64,000 nt of DNA from Brachybacterium saurashtrense (GTDB lineage Bacteria; Actinomycetota; Actinomycetes; Actinomycetales; Dermabacteraceae), in assembly GCF_003355475.1 (NCBI RefSeq), contig NZ_CP031356.1, positions 310,001-374,000 of the forward strand. The letters are read 5' to 3'. A program made the position numbers and the translations under genes. The notes beneath the pieces are model-generated. The model was not told the DNA's origin, did no database searches, and was given only the letters and a program-made list of their open reading frames with translations. Below, piece by piece: positions 1 through 14,994 of this stretch. Within the stretch, counting starts at the first letter, position 1. Every line of letters begins with the position of its first letter.

Positions 1-2477
1 GCTGGCTGGTCGAGGTCGAGGGCGCTCCCGTCCAGCGCGGCGGCAGCGCGAACGCCAACTCCCGCGCCCAGGAGCGCGTGCAGCAGCGTGCCGCCTCCGC
101 GGAGATCTCCCTGGACGTCGAGGAGAGCTTCGTCGCGGGCTGGAACGGCATGTCGGTCTCGATGGACGACGCCGACGTCGCCAAGCTCCGCGGGGTCTCC
201 GGCGTCACCGCCGTGTACCCGGTGCTCGAGGTCGATCTGCCCGAGCCCGTCTATGCCTCCCCGGAGGACGTCTACGGCAACGCCATGACCGGCGTGGACC
301 AGGTGCAGGAGGTGGACGGCCTCACCGGCGAGGGCGTCACCGTGGGCGTGATCGACTCCGGCATCGACTACAACCACCCCGACTTCGGCGGCTCCGGCAC
401 CGAGGACGAAACCGCCGACTTCCCCGGCGACCGCGTGGTGGGCGGCTACGACTTCGTGGGCGACGACTACGACGCCGGCAGCGGCACCTCCCCGAAGCCC
501 GACGAGTACCCGGACGACTGCGGCGGGCACGGCTCGCACGTGGCCGGCATCATCGGCGCGGACGGCGAGGTGCTGGGCGTGGCCCCCGAGGTGGACCTGA
601 TGTCCTACCGCGTCTTCGGCTGCGACGGCTCCAGCAGCACCGACGTGATCCTCGCCGCGATGGAGCAGGCCATGGAGGACGAGGTGGACGTGGTGAACAT
701 GTCCCTCGGCGCCAGCTTCATGACCTGGCAGGACTACCCGACCGCGCAGATGTCCGACACGATGAGCGACAACGGCATCACCATGGTGATCTCCGCCGGC
801 AACTCCGGCCGCTCCGGCACCTTCTCCAGCGGCGCCCCCGGCGTCTCCTCCTCGGCGATCACCGTCGCCTCGGTGGACAGCACGCACATACGCTCGACCT
901 ACGCCACCGCGGCGGGCCGGGAGATCGGCTACACCTCCGCCACCGGCGCCCCGGAGGCACCCACCTCCGGCGAGCTCACGCTGATCTCCGCCGGCGCACC
1001 GGGCACCGAGGCCGCCCAGGCCTGTGACTCCTCCGTGGTGCCGCAGGCCACCGGCGAGGGCCAGGCACTGCTCATCGAGCGCGGCGAATGCAGCTTCCAC
1101 CTCAAGGCCCTCGCGGGCCAGGAGGCCGGCTACGACGCCGTGATCATGTACAACAACGCGCCCGGCGCCCTGAACCCCACGGTCGAGGGCGACACCGAGA
1201 TCACCATCCCCGTGGTGATGGCCAGCCAGGAGGACGGTCTCGCCCTCCAGGAGGCGCTCGCCGCCGGCGAGGTGACCTGGGCCTGGCAGGAGGGTACGAT
1301 CGTGCTCGAGAACGACACCGCCGGCCTCGTCTCCGAGTTCTCCTCCTACGGCCTCACCGCCGAGCTGGAGCTCACGCCCGACGTCGCCGCTCCCGGCGGC
1401 TCGATCTGGTCCACCATCCCGCTCGAGCAGGGCGGGCACGGCGCGAAGTCCGGCACCTCGATGGCGGCGCCCCACGTCGCCGGCGCCGCGGCCCTGCTGC
1501 TGGAGTCCGCCCCGGAGCTCGAGCCCGGTGACGTGAAGACCGCGATGATGAACACCGCGGACCCGCTCACCTGGTCGCTGATCCCCGATGCGGGCTACCT
1601 CGAGCCGGTGCACCGCCAGGGCGCGGGCCTGCTCGACATGGTCGCCGCGGTGCACACCGCCACCCGGGTGGACGAGCCCTCGCTCTCCCTCGGCGAGGGC
1701 GAGGACGGACCCCGCACCGTCACGCTCACCGTCCACAACGACTCCGACGTGGAGCAGAGCTACACGGTGGGCGTGCGCCACGGCATCGCCACCGGCCACC
1801 CCACCTACAACCCGGAGTTCTACGACGCCCAGGCCACCACGGAGCTCGGCGCCGATACCGTCACCGTGCCCGCGGGCTCCAGCACGGAGCTGACCGTCAC
1901 CCTCGGCGAGGACTTCGGCGCGGACGGGATCGTCTACGGCGGCTGGATCACCCTCACCGGCGCGGAGGACGACATCGTGGTCCCCTTCGCCGGCCTCTCC
2001 GGCGACTACCAGGCCCTGCCGATGTTCTCCGACCAGGGGATCGGCCTGCCGTTCCTGGGGGCCTCCGACGGCGAGGGCTCCATCCTCGGCATCGGTGAGG
2101 ACGGCCACGAGTTCACCATGCAGGACGGCGACGTCCCGTACCTGGCGTACTACCTGAACTACCCGGCCGAGCGCGTGGAGTTCAGCGCCTACGAGATCCG
2201 CTCGAAGGGTCGCCAGAAGGTGGTCAACCCCTCCGTCGGCCTGATCGACGCCTCCGACCACGTGGGACGCTCCGGCGAGCCCGAGGTCTACGGCTGGGAC
2301 GGCAGCTACTCGCTGAAGAACCAGAAGTCCAAGACCGTGAAGAACGGGGACTACGTGCTCGAGATGCGGGTGCTCAAGCCCCTCGGCGATCCGGAGAACC
2401 CGGACCACTGGGAGACCTTCACCTCCCCGCAGTTCACGATCGACAACCCCAGCCCGGGCAAGCCCGGGGCGCGCTGA
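1..2477 (+). CDS. S8 subtilisin-like serine protease, 3' part (5' end outside window)
   Basis: The frame is open from base 3, so the start lies upstream; 824 residues are visible. The catalytic triad is clear: Asp in GVIDSGID (bases 354-356), His in GGHGSHVAG (528-530) and Ser in SGTSMAAPHVAG (1458-1460). The oxyanion Asn sits in SAGNSGRSG (801-803). A protease-associated (PA) insert lies between the oxyanion Asn and the Ser, roughly bases 960-1340, and an Fn3-like domain follows from about 1690. The first visible residues (WLVEVEGAPV) look like the end of an inhibitor I9-type propeptide, as expected for a secreted enzyme. There is no sortase motif or C-terminal membrane segment. It probably degrades extracellular protein. 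The GTG at 78 is unlikely to be the real start because the propeptide-like frame continues before it. Confidence 0.93.
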   Translation, partial: WLVEVEGAPVQRGGSANANSRAQERVQQRAASAEISLDVEESFVAGWNGMSVSMDDADVAKLRGVSGVTAVYPVLEVDLPEPVYASPEDVYGNAMTGVDQVQEVDGLTGEGVTVGVIDSGIDYNHPDFGGSGTEDETADFPGDRVVGGYDFVGDDYDAGSGTSPKPDEYPDDCGGHGSHVAGIIGADGEVLGVAPEVDLMSYRVFGCDGSSSTDVILAAMEQAMEDEVDVVNMSLGASFMTWQDYPTAQMSDTMSDNGITMVISAGNSGRSGTFSSGAPGVSSSAITVASVDSTHIRSTYATAAGREIGYTSATGAPEAPTSGELTLISAGAPGTEAAQACDSSVVPQATGEGQALLIERGECSFHLKALAGQEAGYDAVIMYNNAPGALNPTVEGDTEITIPVVMASQEDGLALQEALAAGEVTWAWQEGTIVLENDTAGLVSEFSSYGLTAELELTPDVAAPGGSIWSTIPLEQGGHGAKSGTSMAAPHVAGAAALLLESAPELEPGDVKTAMMNTADPLTWSLIPDAGYLEPVHRQGAGLLDMVAAVHTATRVDEPSLSLGEGEDGPRTVTLTVHNDSDVEQSYTVGVRHGIATGHPTYNPEFYDAQATTELGADTVTVPAGSSTELTVTLGEDFGADGIVYGGWITLTGAEDDIVVPFAGLSGDYQALPMFSDQGIGLPFLGASDGEGSILGIGEDGHEFTMQDGDVPYLAYYLNYPAERVEFSAYEIRSKGRQKVVNPSVGLIDASDHVGRSGEPEVYGWDGSYSLKNQKSKTVKNGDYVLEMRVLKPLGDPENPDHWETFTSPQFTIDNPSPGKPGAR

Positions 2478-2581: not shown

Positions 2582-3730
2582 TCAGGCGTCGCCGAGCGTC
2601 CCCGGCGCGATCCGCGCCACCCGGATCTCGCGGGCCTCCACCTCCCACAGCACCACGATCGCGCCGTCCTCGAGGCCCTGCACCGCGGAGTAGTCCAGCG
2701 GGCCGGGCTCGAACACCAGCAGCTCCCGCCAGGTCGCGCCGTCGTCGTCCGAGGCGCTCAGCGTGCCCCGCACCCGGGCGAAGCGGTCCCAGGCATTGGT
2801 GAACAGCAGCTGCCGAGCGCGCGGATCGCCCGCGGGCGCCCCGGGATGCCGGGCGGCGAGCTGGGCGTTGTTGCCCGGGTCCACGAACTGCGGGTCCACG
2901 CCGCGGTCCTCCCAGGTGGCGCCGCCGTCCGCGGAGACGGCGATCCGGCGGTGACCGCCGCGCACGTGATCGCGCGAGTTCAGCAGCACCCGCCCGTCGG
3001 AGAGCTCCACCACCGTGGTCTCGTCCATGTCCTCGCCCACGGGCTCGCCCCGCTGCCAGGTCTCGCCGTGGTCGTCGGAGAACAGCACGTAGGAGCGCAC
3101 CACCTCGTCCTCGCGCGGGCCCCGGCCGCCGGCGGCGGCGCCCTCGGCACGGAACCAGCCGCAGTACGGCTGCACCAGGCGCCCGGCGTAGAGGCCGCGC
3201 TGCAGCACGATGCCGCTGCCGGAGGTGGGGAACGCGGTGCGCAGCAGCGCCGGCGGGGCGGCGACCTCGGTGACGGAGCGGAAGGCCCAGCTGCGCCCGC
3301 CGTCCTCGGAGACGCCCACGGCGGAGCCCATGACGTCGCGGTCCGCATCGTCGGTGCCGGCCAGCGCATCCCAGACCCCGCGGTCCTTGGCGTGGGTGTG
3401 GAACACGAACAGCCGCCCGGCGGCGGGGTCGTGGAGGAAGCTCGGGTCGCAGTACCACTGCCTCCCCTTGCGATCCGCGTCCCGCAGCGTCTCCAGCGGG
3501 CCCCAGGTGCGGCCCCCGTCCAGGGAGCGGCACTGCACCAGACCCGTCGGGTCCGGCACGTCCTGGCCGGTCTCGCGGCCGTCGAAGGCGGCCAGCAGGT
3601 GCCCGCCGCCCAGGGAGATCAGGCCCACGATGCGGTACCGGGGCCACGGCCCCTCCCCGGCCCGGGCCAGCACCGTGTGCGGCACCGGGGCGTCGGGGAC
3701 GGGGGCCGGGGAGGAGCCGAGGTGGATCAT
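2582..3730 (-). CDS. Exo-alpha-sialidase-like protein without signal peptide
   Basis: 382 residues, GH33-like six-bladed propeller. It cleaves terminal sialic acid from glycans if active. Five Asp boxes are visible (SLDGGRTW, SEDGGRSW, SDDHGETW, SADGGATW, SDDDGATW). The candidate nucleophile pair is retained: Glu242 in VELSDG and Tyr347 in LDYSAV. The Arg-triad FRIP motif is altered to YRIV (residues 32-35), keeping the Arg but losing the Pro. The start ATG overlaps the stop of the upstream sialidase (ATGA), so the start is well fixed. The protein begins directly in the catalytic domain with no Sec or Tat signal. It is close in sequence to the upstream Tat-exported paralogue. It is the last gene of the operon. 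It may act in the cytoplasm on imported sialosides; weak activity or loss of activity is also possible. Confidence 0.85.
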   Translation of the reverse strand: MIHLGSSPAPVPDAPVPHTVLARAGEGPWPRYRIVGLISLGGGHLLAAFDGRETGQDVPDPTGLVQCRSLDGGRTWGPLETLRDADRKGRQWYCDPSFLHDPAAGRLFVFHTHAKDRGVWDALAGTDDADRDVMGSAVGVSEDGGRSWAFRSVTEVAAPPALLRTAFPTSGSGIVLQRGLYAGRLVQPYCGWFRAEGAAAGGRGPREDEVVRSYVLFSDDHGETWQRGEPVGEDMDETTVVELSDGRVLLNSRDHVRGGHRRIAVSADGGATWEDRGVDPQFVDPGNNAQLAARHPGAPAGDPRARQLLFTNAWDRFARVRGTLSASDDDGATWRELLVFEPGPLDYSAVQGLEDGAIVVLWEVEAREIRVARIAPGTLGDA

Positions 3731-4971
3731 CGCGACAGGATCCAGTCCATGTCCAGGCGCGCGAAGGTGATCGTCTCCTGCGCGGCCTCGTAGAGCAGGC
3801 CGAACTCGTCCCCGCCCAGCGGGATGATCACCGAGTACTGGCACGCACCGGGGGCGAACACCCGCTTGCGCGCCCAGGTGGCGCCGTCGTCGGTGGAGAT
3901 CTCGATGGTGCCGTTCTCCCGCGTGTGCGGCACGTGATCGGCGTGCGAGAACAGCAGCACCTTCGCCTTCGCCGAGCCCTTCGGCGCGTCCGGGTAGGCG
4001 CGGGAGAGCTGCGCGTTGTTGCCGGGGTCCACGAGGGAGGGATCGCGGTGGAGATCCTCCCAGGTCTCGCCGCCGTCGTGGCTGTAGGCCACCCAGCGCC
4101 GGCCCGTGCGGACGTGCTCGCGCGAGTTCATCATGAGGGTGCCGTCGGAGAGCTCGGCGACCTTGTTCTCGTCCATCTCGGTGCCGACGGGCGTGCCCAT
4201 GGTCCAGGTCTCGCCGTGATCGTCGGAGTAGACCGAGTACGCGGAGACGTCCTCGCCCCCGGAGCCGTTGCGGAACCAGCCTGCGTACTGCTGGATCAGG
4301 CGGCCCTTGTGCGCGCCGTAGCGCAGCTGGATGCCGGCCCCGGAGGAGGCGAACATCGCGCGGCAGTCCTCGGGCTTGACCACTTCGGTGAGGGAGCGGT
4401 GCTCCCAGGTGAGCCCGGAGTCGTGGCTGACGGAGAGGTTCGCGCTCATGATGCGGCGATCCTCGTCGTCGTTGCCGTACTCGCCATCCCACACGCCCAC
4501 GTCCTTGGAGAAGACGCAGAACAGGAAGATCGTGCCGGTCTCGACGTCCACCACGTAGGAGGGGTCGGAGTAGCCGAGCTTCTCCCCGGGCACGGACGAC
4601 TCGTTGCCGGCGCGCACCACCTCGGGCTCGCCCCAGGTGCGGCCGCCGTCCGTGGACCGACGCTGCCAGATGGAGTTGGGGGAGGGGGAGTCCCCGTGCA
4701 CGGGGCGCTTGTCGAAGGCGGCCAGCAGATCGCCGTTCGGCGCGACGGCCAGCGCGGGGATGCGGAAGTTCTGCACTCCCCAGTCGCCCGGGGCGGCGAG
4801 CACCTGCTCCACGTAGGTGCCGCGACGGCTGCCGTGCTCCTTCACCGGTGGGAGGGCGGCGGTACCGGCGTGCTCGGGCCGCTCCGCGGAGGCGGCAGCG
4901 GCGCCGCCTCCCAGCGCAGCGAGGGCGGCGGCGGTGCCCAGCAGGCCGCGGCGGGTCATCGGGATATCCAT
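3727..4971 (-). CDS. Tat-exported exo-alpha-sialidase (neuraminidase)
   Basis: 414 residues from the ATG at 4971, chosen because AAGGAG lies just upstream and because it gives a clean twin-arginine signal (TRRGLLG, then an Ala-rich stretch to about residue 29). The frame stays open further upstream to 5106, but that stretch is not signal-like. FRIP is intact at residues 69-72. Five Asp boxes are seen, near residues 106, 182, 249, 297 and 359. The candidate acid/base is Asp94, with Glu273 in AELSDG and Tyr379 in CQYSVI as the nucleophile pair. It should release N-acetylneuraminate from host or dietary glycoconjugates outside the cell. It sits 158 bp downstream of nanE, after a hairpin, and overlaps the next sialidase by 4 bases. 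Confidence 0.92.
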   Translation of the reverse strand: MDIPMTRRGLLGTAAALAALGGGAAAASAERPEHAGTAALPPVKEHGSRRGTYVEQVLAAPGDWGVQNFRIPALAVAPNGDLLAAFDKRPVHGDSPSPNSIWQRRSTDGGRTWGEPEVVRAGNESSVPGEKLGYSDPSYVVDVETGTIFLFCVFSKDVGVWDGEYGNDDEDRRIMSANLSVSHDSGLTWEHRSLTEVVKPEDCRAMFASSGAGIQLRYGAHKGRLIQQYAGWFRNGSGGEDVSAYSVYSDDHGETWTMGTPVGTEMDENKVAELSDGTLMMNSREHVRTGRRWVAYSHDGGETWEDLHRDPSLVDPGNNAQLSRAYPDAPKGSAKAKVLLFSHADHVPHTRENGTIEISTDDGATWARKRVFAPGACQYSVIIPLGGDEFGLLYEAAQETITFARLDMDWILSR

Positions 4972-5129: not shown

Positions 5130-5813
5130 TCAGGCGTCGGTGACGGCGGTGCGGAACCAGGTGGTGAGGGTGGTGGGGTGGGTGATGGCGGTGCCGACGA
5201 CGACGGCGTGGGCGCCTGCGGTGCGGGCGGCGGCGGCCTGGTCGGGGGTGTGGACGCGGCCTTCGGCCACGAGCGCGGAGGTGGTGGGGAGGCGGCCTGC
5301 GAGCTGGTGGAGGAGGTCGAGGTCGGGGCCGGTGGTCTTCTCGCGGGCGGGGGTGTAGCCGGCGAGGGTGGTGCCGATGATGTCGATGCCGAGGTCGGCG
5401 GCTGCCAGGGCGGCGTCGAGGCTGTCGCAGTCGGCCATGAGGGGGCCGTCGAAGCGGGTGCGGATCTGCTCGACGGTCTGGGCGAGGGTGCGTCCGTCGG
5501 GGCGGGGGCGGGTGGTGCCGTCGAGGGCGAGGATGTCGGCGCCGGCGTCGAGGACGGCGAGGGCGTGGTCGAGGGTGGGGGTGATGAACACGCCGTCGGT
5601 GCCGTCCTTCCAGATCCCGATCACGGGGATGTCCACCGCGGCCTTGACGGCGCGGATGTCCTCGAGGCCCTGGGCGCGGACGGCGGAGGCGCCGCCGGTC
5701 TCGACGGCGGCGGCGACCTGGGCCATGGTGCGCGGGTCGCGCATCGGCTCGCCGGGGTAGGCCTGGCAGGAGACGATCAGGGTGCCTTCGAGGGCGGAGA
5801 CCAGAGGATGCAC
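5130..5813 (-). CDS. nanE: N-acylglucosamine-6-phosphate 2-epimerase NanE
   Basis: 227 residues. It converts ManNAc-6-phosphate to GlcNAc-6-phosphate, the last committed step of sialic acid breakdown before the amino-sugar pathway; cytoplasmic TIM barrel. Family motifs are present: catalytic Lys69 in IGIWKDG, DGTTRPRP, MADCDS and the C-terminal phosphate site GTAITHP. The GTG start at 5813 was chosen because AAAGGA precedes it by 5-6 bases and because the protein then begins at the usual family position. It follows nanK by 55 bp on the same strand. Confidence 0.95.
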   Translation of the reverse strand: MHPLVSALEGTLIVSCQAYPGEPMRDPRTMAQVAAAVETGGASAVRAQGLEDIRAVKAAVDIPVIGIWKDGTDGVFITPTLDHALAVLDAGADILALDGTTRPRPDGRTLAQTVEQIRTRFDGPLMADCDSLDAALAAADLGIDIIGTTLAGYTPAREKTTGPDLDLLHQLAGRLPTTSALVAEGRVHTPDQAAAARTAGAHAVVVGTAITHPTTLTTWFRTAVTDA

Positions 5814-5868
5814 GGCGGTCCTTTCGGGACGGCGGGTCAGCGGCAGGGCAGGTCGGGGAGCGGCGGGA

Positions 5869-6810
5869 TCAGGGGGCGAGCTCGTCGAGCGCGCGAGCGG
5901 CGGCGCCCAGCAGCGCGGCGTGGGAGCCCGCACTCGCCGGCAGCACCGGCAGTGTCGCGACCACGTCCATCGCCTCGAGGGCGAGCCCCTCGGCGACGGC
6001 CTCGTGCCACAACGGGCCGGCCTCGGCCACCCCGCCGGTGAGCGCGACCGCCTCGGGGTCCAGCACGTTCGCGAGCGCGCCCACGGCCCGGCCGGTGGCG
6101 CGCCCGGCGATCCGGCAGGCCCGACGGGCGGGGCCGTCGGCACGGGCGGCCTCGGCCACCAGCGCGCGGCCGTCGGCGAGGGAGCCGTCGGCGCCGAGCC
6201 GGTGCGCCAGGTGCACGATCCCGGGCCCGGAGGCGAGCCCCTCCAGGTGCCCGGTGCGGCCGCAGGGGCAGGGCACGCCCTCCGCCTCGGGCACCGGCAG
6301 GTGGCCCACGTGGCCCGCCGCGCCGCGGGCACCGGCGAGGATCTGCCCGTCCACGACCAGCGCGCCGCCGATGCCGGTGCCCACGGCGACCAGCAGCAGC
6401 GAGGAGCGGCCTCGTCCGGTCCCGAAGCGGGCCTCGCCCAGACCGTGGGCGTGGACGTCGTTGAGCACGGCCACGGGCACCGCGAAGCGCTCTGCGAACG
6501 GGGTGCGCACATCGGTGCCCGCCCAGCCGTTGAGGGAGGAGGTGGCATGGGTGACGGTGCCGGCCGCGCCGTCGATCACGCCGGCGCTGGAGAGCCCCAC
6601 GGCCCGCAGGCCCAGTCCGCCGCGCACACGCTCGGCGAGGTCCAGCGCCGCCCCGAGGATCGCCGTCGCGCCGGCGGCTGCAGGGGTGGGCACCTCCGCC
6701 ACGCCCTCGAGGCGCGGGCCCGCACCCGCGGCGCCCGGGGCGGCGTCGTGCACCAGGGCGGCACGGATCTTCGTGCCGCCCAGGTCGAGGGCGAGGACCG
6801 GCTCAGGCAC
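5869..6810 (-). CDS. nanK: ROK-family N-acetylmannosamine kinase NanK
   Basis: 313 residues. It phosphorylates ManNAc at the 6-hydroxyl using ATP. The N-terminal phosphate-binding motif DLGGTK is at residues 9-14. The ROK zinc site appears as GHVGHLPV...CPCGRTGH, where the last Cys of the usual CxCGxxGC is His. The GTG start overlaps the nanA stop in GTGCCTGA, so the two are translationally coupled. The position between nanA and nanE makes ManNAc the likely substrate; by sequence alone a glucokinase could not be excluded. Confidence 0.92.
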   Translation of the reverse strand: MPEPVLALDLGGTKIRAALVHDAAPGAAGAGPRLEGVAEVPTPAAAGATAILGAALDLAERVRGGLGLRAVGLSSAGVIDGAAGTVTHATSSLNGWAGTDVRTPFAERFAVPVAVLNDVHAHGLGEARFGTGRGRSSLLLVAVGTGIGGALVVDGQILAGARGAAGHVGHLPVPEAEGVPCPCGRTGHLEGLASGPGIVHLAHRLGADGSLADGRALVAEAARADGPARRACRIAGRATGRAVGALANVLDPEAVALTGGVAEAGPLWHEAVAEGLALEAMDVVATLPVLPASAGSHAALLGAAARALDELAP

Positions 6811-7744
6811 GGGCGCTCTCGAGCAGCCCCGTGCTCTGCAGGATCCCGCGGATCCGCTGCACGGCCTCGCCCTCGATCGGGGACATCGGGGTCGCCATCG
6901 TGTTGGTGGAGACGACGCCCAGCTCCCGCAGCGCCGTCTTGAACGCGCCGACGCCCGCGGCCGGGCCCACCTTGCCGGTGGGCTGGAACACGATCTCGAA
7001 CAGCGCCGCGAGACGATCCTGCTCGGTGCGCACCTGCTCCCAATCGCCGGCCTGCGCGGCGCGGTGCATCCGCGCGTACCCGGCCGGGTCCACGTTCCCC
7101 AGCCCCGGCACGGAGCCGTCGGCGCCGGCGAGGTAGGCGCCGTCCACCACCACCTCGTGGCCGGTGAGCAGCGTGAGCGGGGAGCCGGCCGCCCGGTTCC
7201 CGGCGGCCAGGCGGCGGAAGCCCACGTCATCCCCGCTGGAGTCCTTCACCCCGGCGATCACGCCGTCCGATCCCAGGCGCAGCAGCTGCGCGGCGGAGAG
7301 CTTGGTGTGCACGCACACGGGGAGGTCGTACGCCCACAACGGGCGGTCGGTCGCAGCAGCGATCGCGCGGAAGTGCGCGTCGATCTCCTCCGGGCCGGTG
7401 ATCGCGTAGAACGGGGCGGTGGCCACGTAGCCGGCCAGGTCGAAGCGCTCGGCGGCGCGGACGTGCTGGAGCACGCGATCGGTCTGCATGTCGATCACGC
7501 CCGCGATCACCGGCACCTGGCCGGCCACGATCCCGGTGACGGCCTCGAGCACCGCCTCGCGGCGGGCATCGTCCCAGAAGGCCACCTCGCCGCTCGAGCC
7601 GAGGGCGAAGATGCCGTCCACCCCGCCGTCGAGCAGGTGGGCGACGAGGCGCTCCAGCGAGGGCAGGTCCAGCTCGCCCTCGGCGGTGAGCGGGGTGAGC
7701 AGCGGGGGGACCACTCCGGAGAGCGGGGCGGGGGCAGTGGTCAT
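6803..7744 (-). CDS. nanA: N-acetylneuraminate lyase (DapA superfamily)
   Basis: 313 residues, class I aldolase TIM barrel. It splits N-acetylneuraminate into ManNAc and pyruvate. The carboxylate-binding motif is GSSGE (49-53), the catalytic Tyr is Tyr139 in WAYDLP and the Schiff-base Lys is Lys167 in GVKDSSGD. The start ATG has AAGGAG 8-9 bases upstream. Within the DapA superfamily dihydrodipicolinate synthase and other aldolases look similar; the assignment as a lyase rests on its place between the transporter and nanK-nanE. The 3' end overlaps nanK by 8 bases. Confidence 0.88.
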   Translation of the reverse strand: MTTAPAPLSGVVPPLLTPLTAEGELDLPSLERLVAHLLDGGVDGIFALGSSGEVAFWDDARREAVLEAVTGIVAGQVPVIAGVIDMQTDRVLQHVRAAERFDLAGYVATAPFYAITGPEEIDAHFRAIAAATDRPLWAYDLPVCVHTKLSAAQLLRLGSDGVIAGVKDSSGDDVGFRRLAAGNRAAGSPLTLLTGHEVVVDGAYLAGADGSVPGLGNVDPAGYARMHRAAQAGDWEQVRTEQDRLAALFEIVFQPTGKVGPAAGVGAFKTALRELGVVSTNTMATPMSPIEGEAVQRIRGILQSTGLLESARA

Positions 7745-7794: not shown

Positions 7795-8625
7795 TCACAG
7801 CAGCGACGGCGCCGCGGCCAGCAGCGAGCGGGTGTAGTCGTCCTTCGCCTCGGAGAAGATCTGCGCGGTCGTGCCGTGCTCGACCACCTTCCCGCGGTGC
7901 ATGACGATCAGGGAGTCGGAGATGAACCGGACCGTGCTCATGTCGTGCGTGATGAACACCAGGCCCAGGCCCAGCTCCCGCTTGAGGTCGGTGAGGAGGT
8001 TCAGCACCTGCGCCCGGACGGAGACGTCCAGCGCGCTGGTGGGCTCGTCGGCGACGATGATCTGCGGCTCGAGGGCCAGTGCGCGGGCGATCGCCACGCG
8101 CTGGCGCTGGCCGCCGGAGATCTGCCGCGGCAGCACCTCGACGGCCGACTGCGGCAGGCCCACCAGGTGCAGCAGCTCCTTCACCCGGGCCAGGCGCTGG
8201 GGCTCGGTGCCGATGCCGTGCACCCGCAGCGGATCCATCAGCGTCTCCCGCACCGGCAGGCGCGGGTTCAGCGCGGTGGAGGGGTCCTGGAACACCACCG
8301 AGACCTTCCGGCCCAGCTCCCGGCGGGAGGCGCGGTCGCGGGACAGCGGCAGTCCGTCGAAGGTGACCCGCCCCGCGGTGACCGGCTGCAGGCCGGTCAT
8401 CACGCGCGCCAGGGTGGACTTGCCGGAGCCGGATTCGCCCACCACGCCGAGCACCTCCCCGCGACGCACCGACAGGCTCACCCCGTCGACGGCGCGGATG
8501 GTGTCCGGGCGGAACAGCCCGCCGCTGCGCAGGCGGTGCACCACGTGGACGTCCTGCAGCTCGATCGCGGGGGCGTCCGCCGGGCGCGGGGCGGAGGAGG
8601 ACTGCGGTGCGGAGTGTGCGGTCAT
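7795..8625 (-). CDS. Oligopeptide-type ABC transporter ATP-binding protein (DppF/OppF-like)
   Basis: 276 residues, one ABC domain: Walker A GESGSGKS, signature ISGGQRQR, Walker B IIVADEPTSALD and the switch His in ITHDMS. It ends soon after the nucleotide-binding domain and lacks the Cys-containing OppF tail. The start ATG overlaps the stop of the upstream fusion protein (ATGA). It should pair with the ATPase half of that fusion as the second nucleotide-binding subunit of the importer. In bifidobacteria, family-5 systems of this type serve sialic acid uptake, which fits this operon. Confidence 0.92.
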   Translation of the reverse strand: MTAHSAPQSSSAPRPADAPAIELQDVHVVHRLRSGGLFRPDTIRAVDGVSLSVRRGEVLGVVGESGSGKSTLARVMTGLQPVTAGRVTFDGLPLSRDRASRRELGRKVSVVFQDPSTALNPRLPVRETLMDPLRVHGIGTEPQRLARVKELLHLVGLPQSAVEVLPRQISGGQRQRVAIARALALEPQIIVADEPTSALDVSVRAQVLNLLTDLKRELGLGLVFITHDMSTVRFISDSLIVMHRGKVVEHGTTAQIFSEAKDDYTRSLLAAAPSLL

Positions 8626-10682
8626 CGCGGATCTCCTGCGAGCGGTGCGGGGACGGTGGAGGTGCTCGCGACGCGGTGGCCCGGGGCACCCACCTCGAGC
8701 AGTCGCGGGCGGGTGGTGGGATCGGCCGCGGGGTCGAGCGAGCGCGGGGCGAAGCGGTCCCCGGGGGCGAAGTCCCGCGGGGAGGGCACGGTGCCCGCCA
8801 CCTGGTGCAGCCGCTCGGCGCCCGCCTCGATCGAGAGCACCGAGCCCAGCAGGCCGCGGGTGTACTCGTGGCGCGGGTCGATGAGCAGCTCGTGGGTGGT
8901 GGCCTGCTCGATCACCTGCCCGGCGTACATCACGGTGATGCGGTCGGCGAGCTGGGAGACCAGCGCCAGATCGTGGCTGACGAAGATCATCGCGAAGCCG
9001 AGCTCCTCCCGGAGCCGGTTGAGCAGATCCACCACCTGTTTCTGCACGGTGACGTCGAGCGCCGTGGTGGGCTCGTCCGCGATCACCAGCTTCGGGTCGC
9101 GGGTGAGGGCCATCGCGATGAGTACCCGCTGGCGCTGACCGCCGGAGAGCTCGTGCGGGTAGGCGGCCAGGGTGCGCTTCGGCTCCAGGCCCACCAGCTC
9201 CAGCAGCTCCTCGGCGCTGCGGGTGCCGCCGCGGCGGGTGAGCTGTGCCATCTGGGAGCGGATCAGCATCGAGGGGTTCAGCGAGCTCAGCGCGTCCTGG
9301 TAGATCATCGCGATCTCGTGGCCGCGCAGGGCGTTCAGGCGCGTGCCCGGCAGGTCCAGCAGCTCCGTGCCGCCCAGCCGCACCGAGCCGCTGATCCGCG
9401 CGGTGCGGGGCAGCAGGCCCATGATCGCCAGGCTCGCCACGGACTTGCCGGAGCCGGATTCGCCCACCAGGCCCATCGTCTCCCCGGGGCGCACCTGGAA
9501 GGAGATCCCGTCGAGGATGTCCACGGCGCCGTGCGCCTCGGGGAAGGAGACCCGCAGGTCCTCCACCTCGAGCAGCGGGGCGGCGGTGTCGTCGGCCTCG
9601 AGGCGCTCGGGGCGGGCCGTCTCCGCGGCGCGCAGGGCGGCCAGGGAGCGGTGCAGCAGCCGGGTGGCGGTCTCGTGGTCGGTGGCGCCGAGCACGTGGT
9701 GCTCGTGCGCCGCGGCGTCCGAGGCCTCGGGGCCCGTCGCGCCCTCGGCGCGGGCGGCTTCGGCCTCGACCTCCGCCTCGGTCATCGACTGCTCGTCGGC
9801 CTCGACGTCCACGTCCACCCGCACCCGCGGGCTGGCCATCGCATCGGTGAGGCCCTCGGAGAGGATGTTCAGCGCGAGCGTGGTGAGCAGGATCGCCAGG
9901 CCCGGGAAGAAGGTGGGCCACCAGTAGCCCGCCAGCAGCAGCTGCTTGCCGTCGGCGAGGATGTTGCCCCAGGACGGGTTCGGCGGCTGCACGCCGGCGT
10001 TGATGAAGGAGAGCGACGCCTCGAGCACGATCGCATCGGCCACCAGCACGGTGGCGAACACCATGATCGGGGCGATGCAGTTGCGGGCCACGTGCTTGAC
10101 CAGGATCCAGGCGGTGGAGGCGCCCATCACCTGGGAGGCGGCCACGTAGTCCTCGCCGAACTGGGCGAGCACGTTGGCGCGCACCACACGGGCCAGCTGC
10201 GGCACGTAGAGGAAGCCGATCGCGAAGATCAGCACCGGCAGCGAGGTGCCGAACACGGCCACGAACACGGCGGCCAGGGCGATGCCGGGGAAGGACATCA
10301 CCACGTCCAGCACGCGCATGACGACCTCGGAGACCCACTTCCCGGCGGTCGCCGCGATCGAGCCGATCACGGCGGCGGCCACCAGGGCCGCGGCGGTCGC
10401 GGCGAGGCCGATCGCGAGGGAGGAGCGGGCGCCGTGGGCGACCCGGGCGAAGATGTCGCGCCCGATCGCGTCGGTGCCCATCCAGTGGTCCCCGCCGGGC
10501 GGCTGCACCGGGGTGCCGGTGGCGAGCGGCCCGTGCGGGCTGATCAGCGGGGCGAACACGGCGAGCACGCCCAGCAGCAGCAGGAACACCACCGCGATGC
10601 GGCTCGCCCAGGGCAGGGAGGTGACGGGGGCCAGCGGGCTGCCGCTGACGGCCTGGAGGCGGGATCCGAGCTTCGGTCGCAT
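8622..10682 (-). CDS. Fused ABC permease (DppC-like) and ATPase (DppD-like)
   Basis: 686 residues in one uninterrupted frame. Residues 1-285 are a DppC-type permease with several membrane segments and the EAA loop region (VLAQFGEDYVAASQVMG). Residues about 286-368 form an acidic and Ala-rich linker with no family match I recognise. Residues about 369-686 form an ABC ATPase: Walker A GESGSGKS near 407, LSGGQRQR, VIADEPTTALD and VSHDLA. These parts are normally separate proteins. The usual C-terminal Cys cluster of DppD is absent. It sits 1 base after the dppB-like stop and overlaps the next ATPase by 4 bases. Confidence 0.9.
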   Translation of the reverse strand: MRPKLGSRLQAVSGSPLAPVTSLPWASRIAVVFLLLLGVLAVFAPLISPHGPLATGTPVQPPGGDHWMGTDAIGRDIFARVAHGARSSLAIGLAATAAALVAAAVIGSIAATAGKWVSEVVMRVLDVVMSFPGIALAAVFVAVFGTSLPVLIFAIGFLYVPQLARVVRANVLAQFGEDYVAASQVMGASTAWILVKHVARNCIAPIMVFATVLVADAIVLEASLSFINAGVQPPNPSWGNILADGKQLLLAGYWWPTFFPGLAILLTTLALNILSEGLTDAMASPRVRVDVDVEADEQSMTEAEVEAEAARAEGATGPEASDAAAHEHHVLGATDHETATRLLHRSLAALRAAETARPERLEADDTAAPLLEVEDLRVSFPEAHGAVDILDGISFQVRPGETMGLVGESGSGKSVASLAIMGLLPRTARISGSVRLGGTELLDLPGTRLNALRGHEIAMIYQDALSSLNPSMLIRSQMAQLTRRGGTRSAEELLELVGLEPKRTLAAYPHELSGGQRQRVLIAMALTRDPKLVIADEPTTALDVTVQKQVVDLLNRLREELGFAMIFVSHDLALVSQLADRITVMYAGQVIEQATTHELLIDPRHEYTRGLLGSVLSIEAGAERLHQVAGTVPSPRDFAPGDRFAPRSLDPAADPTTRPRLLEVGAPGHRVASTSTVPAPLAGDPR

Positions 10683-10683
10683 G

Positions 10684-11649
10684 TCAGATGCTCCTGATCC
10701 GAGGATTGACGATGACGTAGAGGAGGTCCACGGCGATGTTCACGACGATGAAGGCGATCGCGACCACCAGGGTCACGCCCTGCACCAGGAACACGTCGTT
10801 CCGGGTGACGCCGTCGAGGATGAGCTGGCCCATCGCCTGGATGTTGAAGATGATCTCGATGATCACGGCGCCGCCCATCAGGTAGCCCACCCGCAGGCCC
10901 AGCACGGTGATCGGGGTGATCAGGGCGTTGCGCAGCACGTTGCGGCTCACCACCACCGGGTACGGGATGCCGGCGCCCACGGCGGTGCGCACGTAGTCGC
11001 GGTCCAGCTCTTCCACCATCGCGGTGCGCACCACACGGATGAGGGAGCCCGCCACGGGGATGCCCAGCGCGAGGGCGGGCAGGGCGATGTTGCGCAGATA
11101 GGTGGCGGGATCGTCGAAGAGTCCCACCCAGCGCGTGACCAGGGCGGGGAAGGCACCCCAGCCGCCCGGCACCTCGCCGAGCCACTGGATCAGCAGGATC
11201 GCGAGCCAGAAGGAGGGGGTGGCCAGCGAGGCGATGGAGAGCACGCGGATCGCCTGGTCGAGCCAGCGGTCGCGGAACAGCGCCGCGAGCACGCCCAGCA
11301 CCGTGGCCAGCACGATCGCGATGGCCAGGCCCAGTAAGGTGAGCTGCAGGGTGATCGGGAACGCCTTCGCGACCAGCTCCGTGACGGGGACGTCCCCGCT
11401 GCTGGTGCCGAGGTCGCCGTGGAGCAGGCCCCCGAGGAACCGGAAGTACCGCTCCCAGACGGGATCGTTCAGGCCGTTGGCCTCGCGGTAGTTCTCCAGC
11501 GCCTCGGTGGAGGCGGATTCGCCGAGGGCGAGGCGCGCGGGATCGGCGGGCGAGAACGACATGATGACGAACACCAGCAGGGTGACGCCGAGGATCATCA
11601 GCGGCAGCGCGAGCAGGCGCCGCCCGATCAGTCGGACGAAGTGGGACAC
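10684..11649 (-). CDS. Oligopeptide-type ABC permease (DppB-like)
   Basis: 321 residues with six predicted membrane segments. The first follows the basic start (RLIGRRLLALPLMILGVTL) and the external loop after it (ADPARLALGE...) is typical of DppB/OppB. The EAA loop (YVRTAVGAGIPYPVVVSRNV) sits before the last two segments. It pairs with the permease half of the downstream fusion to form the channel. It starts at an ATG 111 bp after the solute-binding-protein stop and is separated from the next gene by 1 base. Confidence 0.93.
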   Translation of the reverse strand: MSHFVRLIGRRLLALPLMILGVTLLVFVIMSFSPADPARLALGESASTEALENYREANGLNDPVWERYFRFLGGLLHGDLGTSSGDVPVTELVAKAFPITLQLTLLGLAIAIVLATVLGVLAALFRDRWLDQAIRVLSIASLATPSFWLAILLIQWLGEVPGGWGAFPALVTRWVGLFDDPATYLRNIALPALALGIPVAGSLIRVVRTAMVEELDRDYVRTAVGAGIPYPVVVSRNVLRNALITPITVLGLRVGYLMGGAVIIEIIFNIQAMGQLILDGVTRNDVFLVQGVTLVVAIAFIVVNIAVDLLYVIVNPRIRSI

Positions 11650-11760: not shown

Positions 11761-13398
11761 TCAGGAGGCCTGGGTGGTGCCGACGCCGACGAAGCTCAGG
11801 CCCGTCAGCGAGATCGGCGCGAAGTCGACCAGGGTGGTCGGGTCCCAGGCGGTGGGCGCCTTGCGGTGGAAGAGCGGGTACAGCGGCACCTCGTCGGAGA
11901 GCAGGTCGAACAGCTCCCCCCAGGTGGACTCCTGCTCCGCCGGATCCGCGGCCTCCAGGCCCTGGGCCAGCAGCTCCTGGACCTTCTCGTAGGAGTCCTG
12001 GCCCTTCCAGTGCATGCGGGTGTCGGTCCAGATGTCGCCGCCGTACCACCAGCGCATCAGCAGGTCCGGGTCATTGCCGAACACCGAGGGGTCACCGGGG
12101 GCGATGACCACGTCGAAGGCGTCGTCCCCGCCGTCGATCGTGGTGTACACGTCCGAGGACTGCTTCTGCTCGAACTGCACGTCGACCCCGGCCGCGGTGA
12201 GGGACTCCTGGATGATCGGGGTGCACTGCGCCACCCAGTCGTGATCCGTGCACAGCAGGCGGAAGCTGGTCAGCCCGGTCTCGGCGAACAGCTCCTTCGC
12301 CTTCTCGAGGTCGAGCGAGTAGACGGTGGAGGCCTCCTTGTAGTTCGGGTGCTCCGTCTGCACGAAGCAGCTGGCGGCCTCGGCCTGGCCGGACAGGCCC
12401 GTCTCGATCACCTTGTCCATGTCGATCGCGTAGAGGAACGCCTGACGGTTCCGCACGTCGTTGAACGGGTTGTCCTCGCCGTTGTTGAACATCGCGAACA
12501 GCAGACCGAAGCCGCCCACGGACTCGACCTCGCCGGTGCCCTGGAGCTGATCGATCGAGAGGTAGGGGACGGAGTCGATGGCCTGGACCGTCTTCGACTG
12601 CAGCGCGTTGGTGCGAGTGGACGGATCAGGGATCACCTGCCAGGACATCGTCCTCGCCGCCGCCGGCATCGGGCCGGTGTAGTCGTCGAAGCGCTCGAAC
12701 TCCACGATCTTCGAGGCGGCGGAGTTGTCGGTCATCTGCCAGGGGCCGGTGCCCACGGGGTTCGCGTCGAAGGCGTCGGGATCGGCCTCGACCGCGGCCC
12801 GGGGCACGATCTTCACCGTGGAGAGCCGCTCGGCGAACACGCCGGTGGGGTGCTTCAGGGAGAAGGTGACGGTGGTGTCGTCCTTCGCCTCGACCGCTTC
12901 GATGAACGGGATGAACTGCGCGTACAGCGAGGTGTTGGCCGGGTCGAGCACGCGCTCGAAGGAGAACACCACGTCCTCGGCGGTCACCGGCGAGCCGTCG
13001 TGGAACACGGCGCCCTCGCGCAGGGTCACGTCCACGCTGTCGCCCTCGGCGCTGGGGGTCTCGGTGGCCAGGGCCGCGTACACCTCGCGGGTGACGGGGT
13101 GCAGCTCGGTGAGGCCCTCGAGGGTGTGCCAGTTGACGGCGACGGTGAGCGCCGACGTGGTGGTCATGGGGTCGTACCCGTTGGTGCCCAGCTCGTAGCT
13201 GATCGCGGCGGTGAGGTGGCCGTCCGGGTCCGCCTCGCCGGCGGCCGTGCCGCCGCCCTCGGAGCCGCCGCCGCCGGAGCCGCTGTCGCGGGGGGCGCAG
13301 GCGCCGATGCCGGCGACGATGCCGGCCGCGCTCGCGATGAGGGCGCTGCCGCGGAGGAATCCGCGCCTGCCGATGGGGCCTGTGGTGCTGTCGATCAC
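11761..13398 (-). CDS. Family-5 extracellular solute-binding lipoprotein of the sialic acid operon
   Basis: 545 residues from a GTG at 13398 (AGAAGGGA about 10 bases upstream). The N-terminus has a twin-arginine motif (GRRGFLRG) and ends in a lipobox-like GIGAC with Cys34, so it is probably a Tat-exported lipoprotein. A Gly/Ser-rich linker follows, then a family-5 (peptide/nickel/oligosaccharide) binding fold. It is the first gene of the operon and the ligand-capturing part of the importer. Family-5 proteins usually bind peptides; a sialic acid or sialoside ligand is inferred from the neighbours. The frame remains open upstream to 13671, without an RBS or signal-peptide logic. Confidence 0.9.
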   Translation of the reverse strand: MIDSTTGPIGRRGFLRGSALIASAAGIVAGIGACAPRDSGSGGGGSEGGGTAAGEADPDGHLTAAISYELGTNGYDPMTTTSALTVAVNWHTLEGLTELHPVTREVYAALATETPSAEGDSVDVTLREGAVFHDGSPVTAEDVVFSFERVLDPANTSLYAQFIPFIEAVEAKDDTTVTFSLKHPTGVFAERLSTVKIVPRAAVEADPDAFDANPVGTGPWQMTDNSAASKIVEFERFDDYTGPMPAAARTMSWQVIPDPSTRTNALQSKTVQAIDSVPYLSIDQLQGTGEVESVGGFGLLFAMFNNGEDNPFNDVRNRQAFLYAIDMDKVIETGLSGQAEAASCFVQTEHPNYKEASTVYSLDLEKAKELFAETGLTSFRLLCTDHDWVAQCTPIIQESLTAAGVDVQFEQKQSSDVYTTIDGGDDAFDVVIAPGDPSVFGNDPDLLMRWWYGGDIWTDTRMHWKGQDSYEKVQELLAQGLEAADPAEQESTWGELFDLLSDEVPLYPLFHRKAPTAWDPTTLVDFAPISLTGLSFVGVGTTQAS

Positions 13399-13700
13399 CG
13401 TTGATCCGTCCCTTCTGGGTGGTCCCGGCGCGCGCCGCGCCGGGGTGGTGGGACGTCCGTCCTCGTCATCCGGCGGATGCCCCGCCACCATGCGAAGATC
13501 AGACGTATGATGTCTGATGACTCGAGACAGTACATCACGGATCCGGTGATCGCCACCACCGAGGGCGGCGGTCGTGACCGATCGGTGACCAACGCGGCAG
13601 AGCGCCGCGCCGTGAGTCCGCGACGGCCGCCCGGCGGTCGTGGTCACGGCAGAATGGACCGTGCCGCACACCGCGGCGCCGGTCCGGGAGGGGAGAGAGC
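13399..13700. promoter_or_regulatory. Divergent control region between sialic acid operon and nanR
   Basis: 302 bp between divergent starts. It holds the inverted repeat at 13498-13518 in a locally AT-richer stretch and a 10-bp palindrome (ACCGATCGGT, 13577-13586). No convincing paired -35/-10 elements could be assigned to either direction. A GGAGG lies about 13 bases before the regulator start. Confidence 0.6.
13498..13518. promoter_or_regulatory. Candidate NanR operator
   Basis: Perfect 7-bp arms ATCAGAC (13498-13504) and GTCTGAT (13512-13518) flank a 7-base spacer that itself has partial symmetry. It lies 100 bp before the binding-protein start and 183 bp before the regulator start, in the only AT-rich part of the spacer. 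Size and symmetry fit a FadR-subfamily GntR site. Confidence 0.6.
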
Positions 13701-14472: not shown

Positions 14473-14994
14473 ATGAGCGATCCGCACGAGAGCGCGCCGC
14501 TGGCCGCGCTGGACATCTTCCTCCCTTCGCCCCCGGCGGACCGGGACGCGCAGGAGGCCTTCCTCGACGAGGCCGCCGTGCTCGCGGAAGCCGGCCACCC
14601 GATCACCGTGTACCTGCAGGACGAGGACGCCTGGGCCTTCGCGCAGTGCGAGCCGGTGGCGGAGCTGCTGGCCTCCGCCGGGGACGCGGTGCTGCCGGTG
14701 ACTCTGCTGGGCGCGGACATCGTGGTGAGCTCGGTCTATCCCACGGCCGCGCAGATGGAGCGGTTCACGCGCTCCGGCGGCGCGCCCCGCGAGCGGCCCT
14801 CCGCCGCGGCGGCCGCCTGCGGGCCGGGCGGGGCACCGGGCGGGGCCGCCCCGATGCCGCGCGAGGCCGGCGGCTTCGCCGCGCAGCTGCTGGGCGTCGC
14901 CCCCGCGCGTCCGCGCCCCGAGGGCGGGCCGGACATCGGCGGCCGACGCAACCTCATGGGCGGCGACGTCGGGGACGGGCTTCCTGAGCGCTGA
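14473..14994 (+). CDS. ArsD-like thioredoxin-fold protein of unknown role
   Basis: 173 residues. Residues about 10-95 resemble the ArsD fold in order and motif: an initial strand (LDIFLPSPP), a helix (FLDEAAVLAEAGHPITVY), AWAFAQCEPVAELLASAG, LPVTLLGADIV and YPTAAQM. True ArsD metallochaperones carry vicinal Cys near the first strand; here that place has SPPADRD, so arsenic binding by that site is unlikely. Residues 96-173 are low-complexity Gly/Ala/Pro with no recognisable domain. No ars genes are nearby. The start is supported by a leaderless-type -10 element. The fold assignment is by eye and moderate. Confidence 0.6.
   Translation: MSDPHESAPLAALDIFLPSPPADRDAQEAFLDEAAVLAEAGHPITVYLQDEDAWAFAQCEPVAELLASAGDAVLPVTLLGADIVVSSVYPTAAQMERFTRSGGAPRERPSAAAAACGPGGAPGGAAPMPREAGGFAAQLLGVAPARPRPEGGPDIGGRRNLMGGDVGDGLPER

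Follow-up and report, generated by a model that had tools for sequence, protein, structure and literature searches.

A signal-less sialidase paralogue beside its exported twin in a Brachybacterium sialic acid operon: a probable active cytoplasmic exo-sialidase

The window (the whole 64-kb stretch of DNA analysed here) contains a row of minus-strand genes that ends in two GH33-type sialidase genes, P0002 and then P0001, the former with a Tat-like export signal and the latter with no signal peptide. We favour, with reasonable confidence, the reading that P0001 is an active cytoplasmic exo-sialidase and a signal-less duplicate of the exported copy. One NedA-type exo-α-sialidase gene would have been duplicated in or before the Brachybacterium ancestor; the upstream copy would have retained its Tat-like signal and would free sialic acid outside the cell, and the downstream copy, without a signal and apparently translationally coupled to the preceding gene, would stay in the cytoplasm. 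There it would act as a retaining exo-sialidase, with Tyr347 as nucleophile together with Glu237, Asp57 as acid/base and three arginines for the carboxylate, would hydrolyse sialic acid α-ketosides that reach the cytoplasm, and would supply the operon's lyase, kinase and epimerase with free Neu5Ac. Gene layout, the lack of a signal in orthologues, the intact catalytic residues, the predicted fold, purifying selection and persistence without the exported copy are observations; the cytoplasmic location of P0001, its coupling, its activity and its substrate are what we infer in this scheme.

The sialidase pair, its operon and its distribution

Gene order and spacing suggest that satABCD-nanA-nanK-nanE and the sialidase pair form one operon, whose features are as follows (window coordinates).

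2582..3730, minus strand: P0001, GH33-type sialidase without signal peptide; 382 aa, YRIV; R33, D57, D95, E237, R253, R319, Y347; five Asp-boxes
3727..3730, minus strand: ATGA overlap, read from the DNA, in which the P0002 stop TGA and the P0001 start ATG have 4 bases in common
3727..4971, minus strand: P0002, GH33-type sialidase with Tat-like signal; 414 aa, FRIP; R70, D94, D136, E268, R284, R351, Y379
5130..5843, minus strand: nanE, N-acetylmannosamine-6-phosphate epimerase, start provisional; NCBIfam PRK01130 above cut-off
5869..6795, minus strand: nanK-like ROK kinase, start provisional; NCBIfam ROK models all under cut-off, named with operon position
6803..7741, minus strand: nanA-like lyase of the DapA/NanA superfamily, start provisional; NCBIfam dapA and nanA models all under cut-off, named with operon position
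7795..8622, minus strand: putative satD-like importer ATPase; models under cut-off
8622..10682, minus strand: putative satC-like permease-ATPase fusion; Pfam BPD_transp_1 and ABC_tran above cut-off
10684..11649, minus strand: putative satB-like permease; models under cut-off
11761..13404, minus strand: SatA-like substrate-binding protein, twin-Arg signal by eye, start provisional; phmmer matches to 5za4, 5z99 and 5yyb at 487-488 bits
13701..14450, plus strand: divergent GntR-family regulator; models under cut-off

P0001 and P0002 share 45% identity across 361 columns (E 5e-96), both score above the Pfam BNR_2 cut-off, and they are the sole matches to a P0001 query and to BNR_2 in the complete 3.72 Mb genome (G000). 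The original prediction had described paralogue genes that overlap by 4 bases, the upstream protein with a twin-arginine signal and an intact FRIP motif and the downstream one without a signal and with YRIV, its Glu and Tyr kept; the shared ATGA, the Tat-like signal (by eye) and FRIP (read) of P0002, and YRIV at 32-35, Glu237 and Tyr347 of P0001 bear this out. Beyond the pair, and facing it, lies a gene for a subtilase with S8, PA and Fn3-like domains (window 78-2477), of which 10 of the 20 stretches fetched have a relative next to the sialidase, and a short ORF that adjoins the regulator gene (window 14473-14994) has an ArsD Pfam match barely above cut-off (32 vs 27 bits).

Orthologues of P0001 are present in 15 of 47 family genomes, its own included, at 58-83% identity and all in one genus, to which 38 of the 47 genomes examined belong; the records that carry them include B. 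massiliense, B. tyrofermentans, B. subflavum and B. endophyticum. Among the matches listed in a contig scan for relatives (best 80 of 125), all eight at 57-83% identity are Brachybacterium and the next is at 45%, and a sample of 394 genomes from across the class, in which no more than 4 candidates per genome were scored at an E cut-off of 1e-20, gave no match above 43-48% beyond the window's own protein.

The order nanE-exported-internal is found in seven of the 15 genomes with an internal copy (tallied by hand), an extra gene lies between nanE and the exported copy in two, and both copies are on a short contig in one; the internal gene directly follows nanE in four (G003, G030, G005 and G034) and a broken nanE remnant in one (G014). 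Three nan operons (L127, L128 and L131) among the 20 fetched stretches have the exported copy only. G005 and G034 have a GH33-type gene of another clade elsewhere (L125 and L124, respectively), and searches with P0001 and with the BNR_2 profile found no GH33-type protein besides the internal copy in G003, G014 and G030, the last a MAG in about 520 contigs. The nan operon of G014 (L115) is gone, and the broken nanE remnant, with an internal TGA, is directly before an intact internal sialidase gene, whose persistence there may reflect only recent deletion.

We note two further rearranged or expanded loci. In L130 (G027) part of the importer gene is continuous with that for the exported sialidase and the nan genes are missing, so that a large deletion appears to have joined the importer and sialidase genes. 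The extra genes between nanE and the exported sialidase (L117:7085-8245 and L121:6684-7874) encode proteins of 386-396 aa with a signal-like start that score above the PF01696 cut-off (36.4 and 29.1 vs 24.5 bits), a match that may only reflect a beta-helix; Beta_helix is under cut-off in L121.

Could P0001 fold in the cytoplasm and leave the cell as a passenger on Tat-exported P0002, or serve as its non-catalytic partner, as the original prediction allowed? The genes are adjacent, the start of the internal gene overlaps the exported gene by 4 bases in 9/9 pairs read, and Tat is generally able to carry folded complexes. However, orthologues of P0001 persist in G003, G014 and G030, where no exported GH33-type protein was found and where the internal gene overlaps nanE or its remnant instead; it directly follows nanE in all four genomes with that layout; some nan operons have the exported copy only; and the catalytic residues of P0001 are all intact (below), which speaks in particular against a non-catalytic subunit. 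Since internal-only genomes and exported-only nan operons both occur, neither copy needs the other, and we regard carriage or partnership as very improbable.

Export signals and the start of P0001

The P0002 N-terminus, MDIPMTRRGLLGTAAALAALGGGAAAASA, is a Tat-like signal as judged by eye, and twin Arg precede the domain in all 14 exported copies displayed, that of G027 among them in its fused frame. By eye and by hydropathy, a signal-like stretch is absent from all 14 P0001 orthologues whose start can be read; the fifteenth, from G029, is in a fragmentary MAG and has a frameshift, and its start is not readable. The original prediction had pointed out that a signal peptide on the YRIV protein of relatives would indicate a misplaced start here, and because none of the 14 has one, such a misplacement is very unlikely on this comparison. 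An annotation error, with the true start farther upstream or the gene frameshifted, is to us a hardly credible cause of the missing signal: the P0001 frame is indeed open far upstream within P0002 in the window, but nothing signal-like appears in the 60 residues of it displayed, the frame closes 17-25 codons 5' of the start in four orthologues, and the start is at about the same position in all 14. Where nanE precedes the internal gene directly, the overlap is by ATGA in G030 and by TGATG in G003, and in G014 the start overlaps the nanE remnant.

Of 30 GH33-type rows from outside Brachybacterium, 22 carry a 15-residue stretch of strong hydrophobicity (at least 1.7) N-terminal to the domain; in the other eight (L043, L054, L057, L061, L062, L091, L099 and one of two in L095) it is weak or absent, as scored over no more than the 150 residues that immediately precede the domain. 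L126 (G006), of another GH33-type clade of the genus, has no signal stretch either; it and the Paenarthrobacter loci L057 and L061 have no clear signal, and no nan genes were seen in the stretch searched around them. These are possibly further signal-less groups, or else wrong starts. Since other GH33-type rows are also without a signal stretch, its absence is not unique to the P0001 clade.

Active site, importer and substrate

The best solved relative of both proteins is NedA (1eur), with E values of 1.3e-77 for P0001 and 1.2e-106 for P0002. The NedA catalytic positions, which we take to be R68, D92, D131, E260, R276, R342 and Y370 (the alignment fits a common offset of 42), correspond by alignment counting to R33, D57, D95, E237, R253, R319 and Y347 of P0001 and to R70, D94, D136, E268, R284, R351 and Y379 of P0002, and all seven residues are kept in each. 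P0001 thus has the complete Arg triad (R33, R253 and R319), the Tyr nucleophile Y347 with E237, and the Asp acid/base D57. Among the 15 internal rows, E260, the second and third Arg, the Tyr and D131 are present in all, and the first Arg and D92 in 14, the single gap being the frameshifted MAG. P0001 is a single-domain protein of 382 aa most like NedA, and its AlphaFold2 model (30 aligned sequences; mean pLDDT 91.8, pTM 0.91) is a predicted six-bladed sialidase propeller, for which the nearest PDB entries are NedA and other sialidases (Foldseek top match 1eur, TM 0.88, 41% identity). Its five Asp-boxes (S/T-x-D-x-G-x-x-W/F) start at 69, 141, 218, 266 and 327.

The Y/FRIP motif is altered in P0001, where Tyr, Arg and Ile are kept and Pro is replaced by Val. 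This Pro is gone from 14/14 readable internal rows (Val in 12, Cys in 2), and FRIP is present in 16/16 exported orthologue rows, one of which, from a fragmentary MAG, has Thr in the Tyr column. The part of PMC10298468 consulted gives the sialidase motif as Y/FRIP, so that Tyr for Phe is normal, and because six of 32 rows from other clades, their active sites intact, have Thr (three) or Ala (three) at this position, the Pro is treated here as a usual, not strictly defining, GH33 feature. The assignment of P0001 to GH33 would then rest on the Arg triad, the Tyr, Glu and Asp, and the predicted fold rather than on Y/FRIP; of the emphasis that the original prediction placed on YRIV, the reading of the four residues stands and the weight given to them was too great. 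One more conserved Arg, which does not belong to the triad (position 316 of NedA by residue count; A293 in P0001, R324 in P0002), is lost in 9 of 15 internal rows (Ala 4, Gly 4, Val 1), once according to the tree; of the 32 other rows, 8 have lost it too, each of them from a genome of this same family.

The loss of the Pro in 14/14 rows and of the non-triad Arg in 9/15 counts against an active sialidase and, with the long stem branch of the clade (below), would suit a pseudo-enzyme, that is, a cytoplasmic sialic acid-binding or regulatory protein that has lost hydrolysis. We consider this unlikely, given that no orthologue row spanning these positions has lost the nucleophile, the acid/base or any of the triad arginines, and that the Pro is replaced elsewhere in rows with intact sites. 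The internal enzyme is probably real and active.

What would reach such an enzyme depends on the importer. The SatA-like protein matches 5za4, 5z99 and 5yyb far above the next PDB entry (120 bits), and the locus has the SatABCD-type architecture, a SatA-type binding protein together with a pair of permease domains and a pair of ATPase domains, the NCBIfam models displayed for these ABC parts all being under cut-off. The original prediction considered that an internal sialidase would make sense if short sialosides entered by this family-5 importer, an idea disfavoured by the SatA homology of its binding protein, since the characterised SatA binds free β-Neu5Ac: 5Z99 is SatA of the Haemophilus ducreyi SatABCD, with a Neu5Ac Kd of 133 nM (PMC10017367, in the portion available), and the SatA structure has the β-anomer bound with His333 at the carboxylate (PMC11364026, likewise in part). 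The aligned residue of the window protein appears to be His, within one position (the numbering is approximate). By analogy the operon's importer probably carries free Neu5Ac, which is the likelier cargo because SatA binds β-Neu5Ac whereas glycan sialosides are α-linked. An importer type known for free Neu5Ac leaves the internal enzyme without an evident substrate, which also counts against reading P0001 as an active sialidase. Alongside SatABCD import of free sialic acid, the true substrate could be some so far unrecognised sialoside, present inside the cell or imported by a separate route, a genuine if doubtful possibility that would make P0001 the same puzzle as NanH1 of Bifidobacterium infantis.

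Alternatively, P0001 may be an active cytoplasmic enzyme on something else, such as a nonulosonate glycoside or an anhydro or acylated sialic acid. The long stem and the residues that set the clade apart would fit this, an importer suited to free sialic acid means that the substrate need not be sialyllactose, and the NanH1 just mentioned is a comparable enzyme without a known natural substrate (PMC6109692, accessible text). We hold this to be unlikely, as the catalytic set is the same as that of NedA and a NeuB-type synthase is present in only 3 of the 15 genomes with an internal copy (G000, G010 and G036). NeuB is present in 22 of the 47 family genomes overall and does not track the internal sialidase (the NeuB-type synthase of the window's genome is at G000:C1:3416191-3416895), and a link to home-made nonulosonic acids was dropped. 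An E. coli NanY query, a probe for the anhydro route, gave 26 matches in the window's genome, the best with E 6e-24 at 28% identity and some above 30% over part of the length; a NanOx-type enzyme may be among these, or all may be generic oxidoreductases.

History, selection and known relatives

In a 59-row tree, which left out rows of less than 38% identity as well as L014, L053 and L055, the internal copies form one clade of 14 rows (100/100), and the exported copies from this operon are its sister (15 rows; the pair is supported at 97/92). A tandem duplication with later loss of the signal from the internal copy would account for this; loss rather than gain is the likely direction because the outgroups are mostly exported. 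The stem of the internal clade is 1.06 changes per column long, and this length may reflect a substrate range different from that of the exported copy.

The median omega over the same 36 genome pairs is 0.249 for the internal and 0.278 for the exported copy (Nei-Gojobori, pairwise, the G029 fragment being left out of these sets), and over all 91 internal pairs omega is 0.15-0.51; the internal copy is under purifying selection. G003 and G030 are sister rows for which no exported copy was found, and their internal genes have an omega of 0.16. As the internal copy is the sole GH33-type protein found in these two genomes and is constrained to this degree, it is maintained without the exported copy. 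G014 is weaker evidence for such independent retention because it has lost its nan operon, perhaps only recently.

According to the available part of a survey of 1,969 actinobacterial species (PMC8754123), 82 of the nan clusters from 255 species contain sialidase genes, and for the order Dermabacterales sialic acid catabolism is reported in 8 of 12 species; the name Brachybacterium is absent from its main text as consulted. Titles and abstract openings of the literature on Brachybacterium and sialidase contain nothing on a signal-less/exported pair. A signal-less sialidase in a nan operon is already known from Bifidobacterium, so the surprise is limited and the novelty modest; as far as literature searches show, what is newly described is a genus-limited internal clade accompanied in its operon by an exported twin. 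The interest lies in the substrate question, for which Brachybacterium offers a natural series beside the same importer (exported copy only, both, internal only), with natural strains that carry either copy, both or neither. Whether the internal enzyme permits use of intact sialosides is thereby made directly testable.

Among known systems, NedA of Micromonospora viridifaciens (1eur/1eus) resembles P0001 in the predicted fold (TM 0.88; 41% identity in the structural alignment) and in all seven catalytic residues; NedA is secreted, whereas P0001 is without a signal and has YRIV for YRIP. The SatABCD importers of Haemophilus ducreyi and bifidobacteria resemble that of the window in having four genes and in the SatA-like binding protein (487-488 bits); here the SatB, SatC and SatD names come from gene order and domains, and the cargo is predicted by homology. 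Neither of two sialidases of Bifidobacterium longum subsp. infantis has an export signal; NanH1 belongs to a sialic acid catabolic cluster and NanH2 to a milk-oligosaccharide cluster, both being active on α-2,3 and α-2,6 sialosides and the former without an identified natural substrate (PMC6109692, as far as its accessible text goes). NanH1 and NanH2 share with P0001 the lack of an export signal, and NanH1 its place in a sialic acid cluster (PMC6109692, PMC10298468 and PMC10629584, each in part); unlike P0001 they are proven active in vitro, and the consulted passages of these papers describe no exported twin in the same operon. P0002 and its orthologues form a sister clade (45% identity, the same seven residues being present in P0002), which differs in its Tat-like signal and FRIP.
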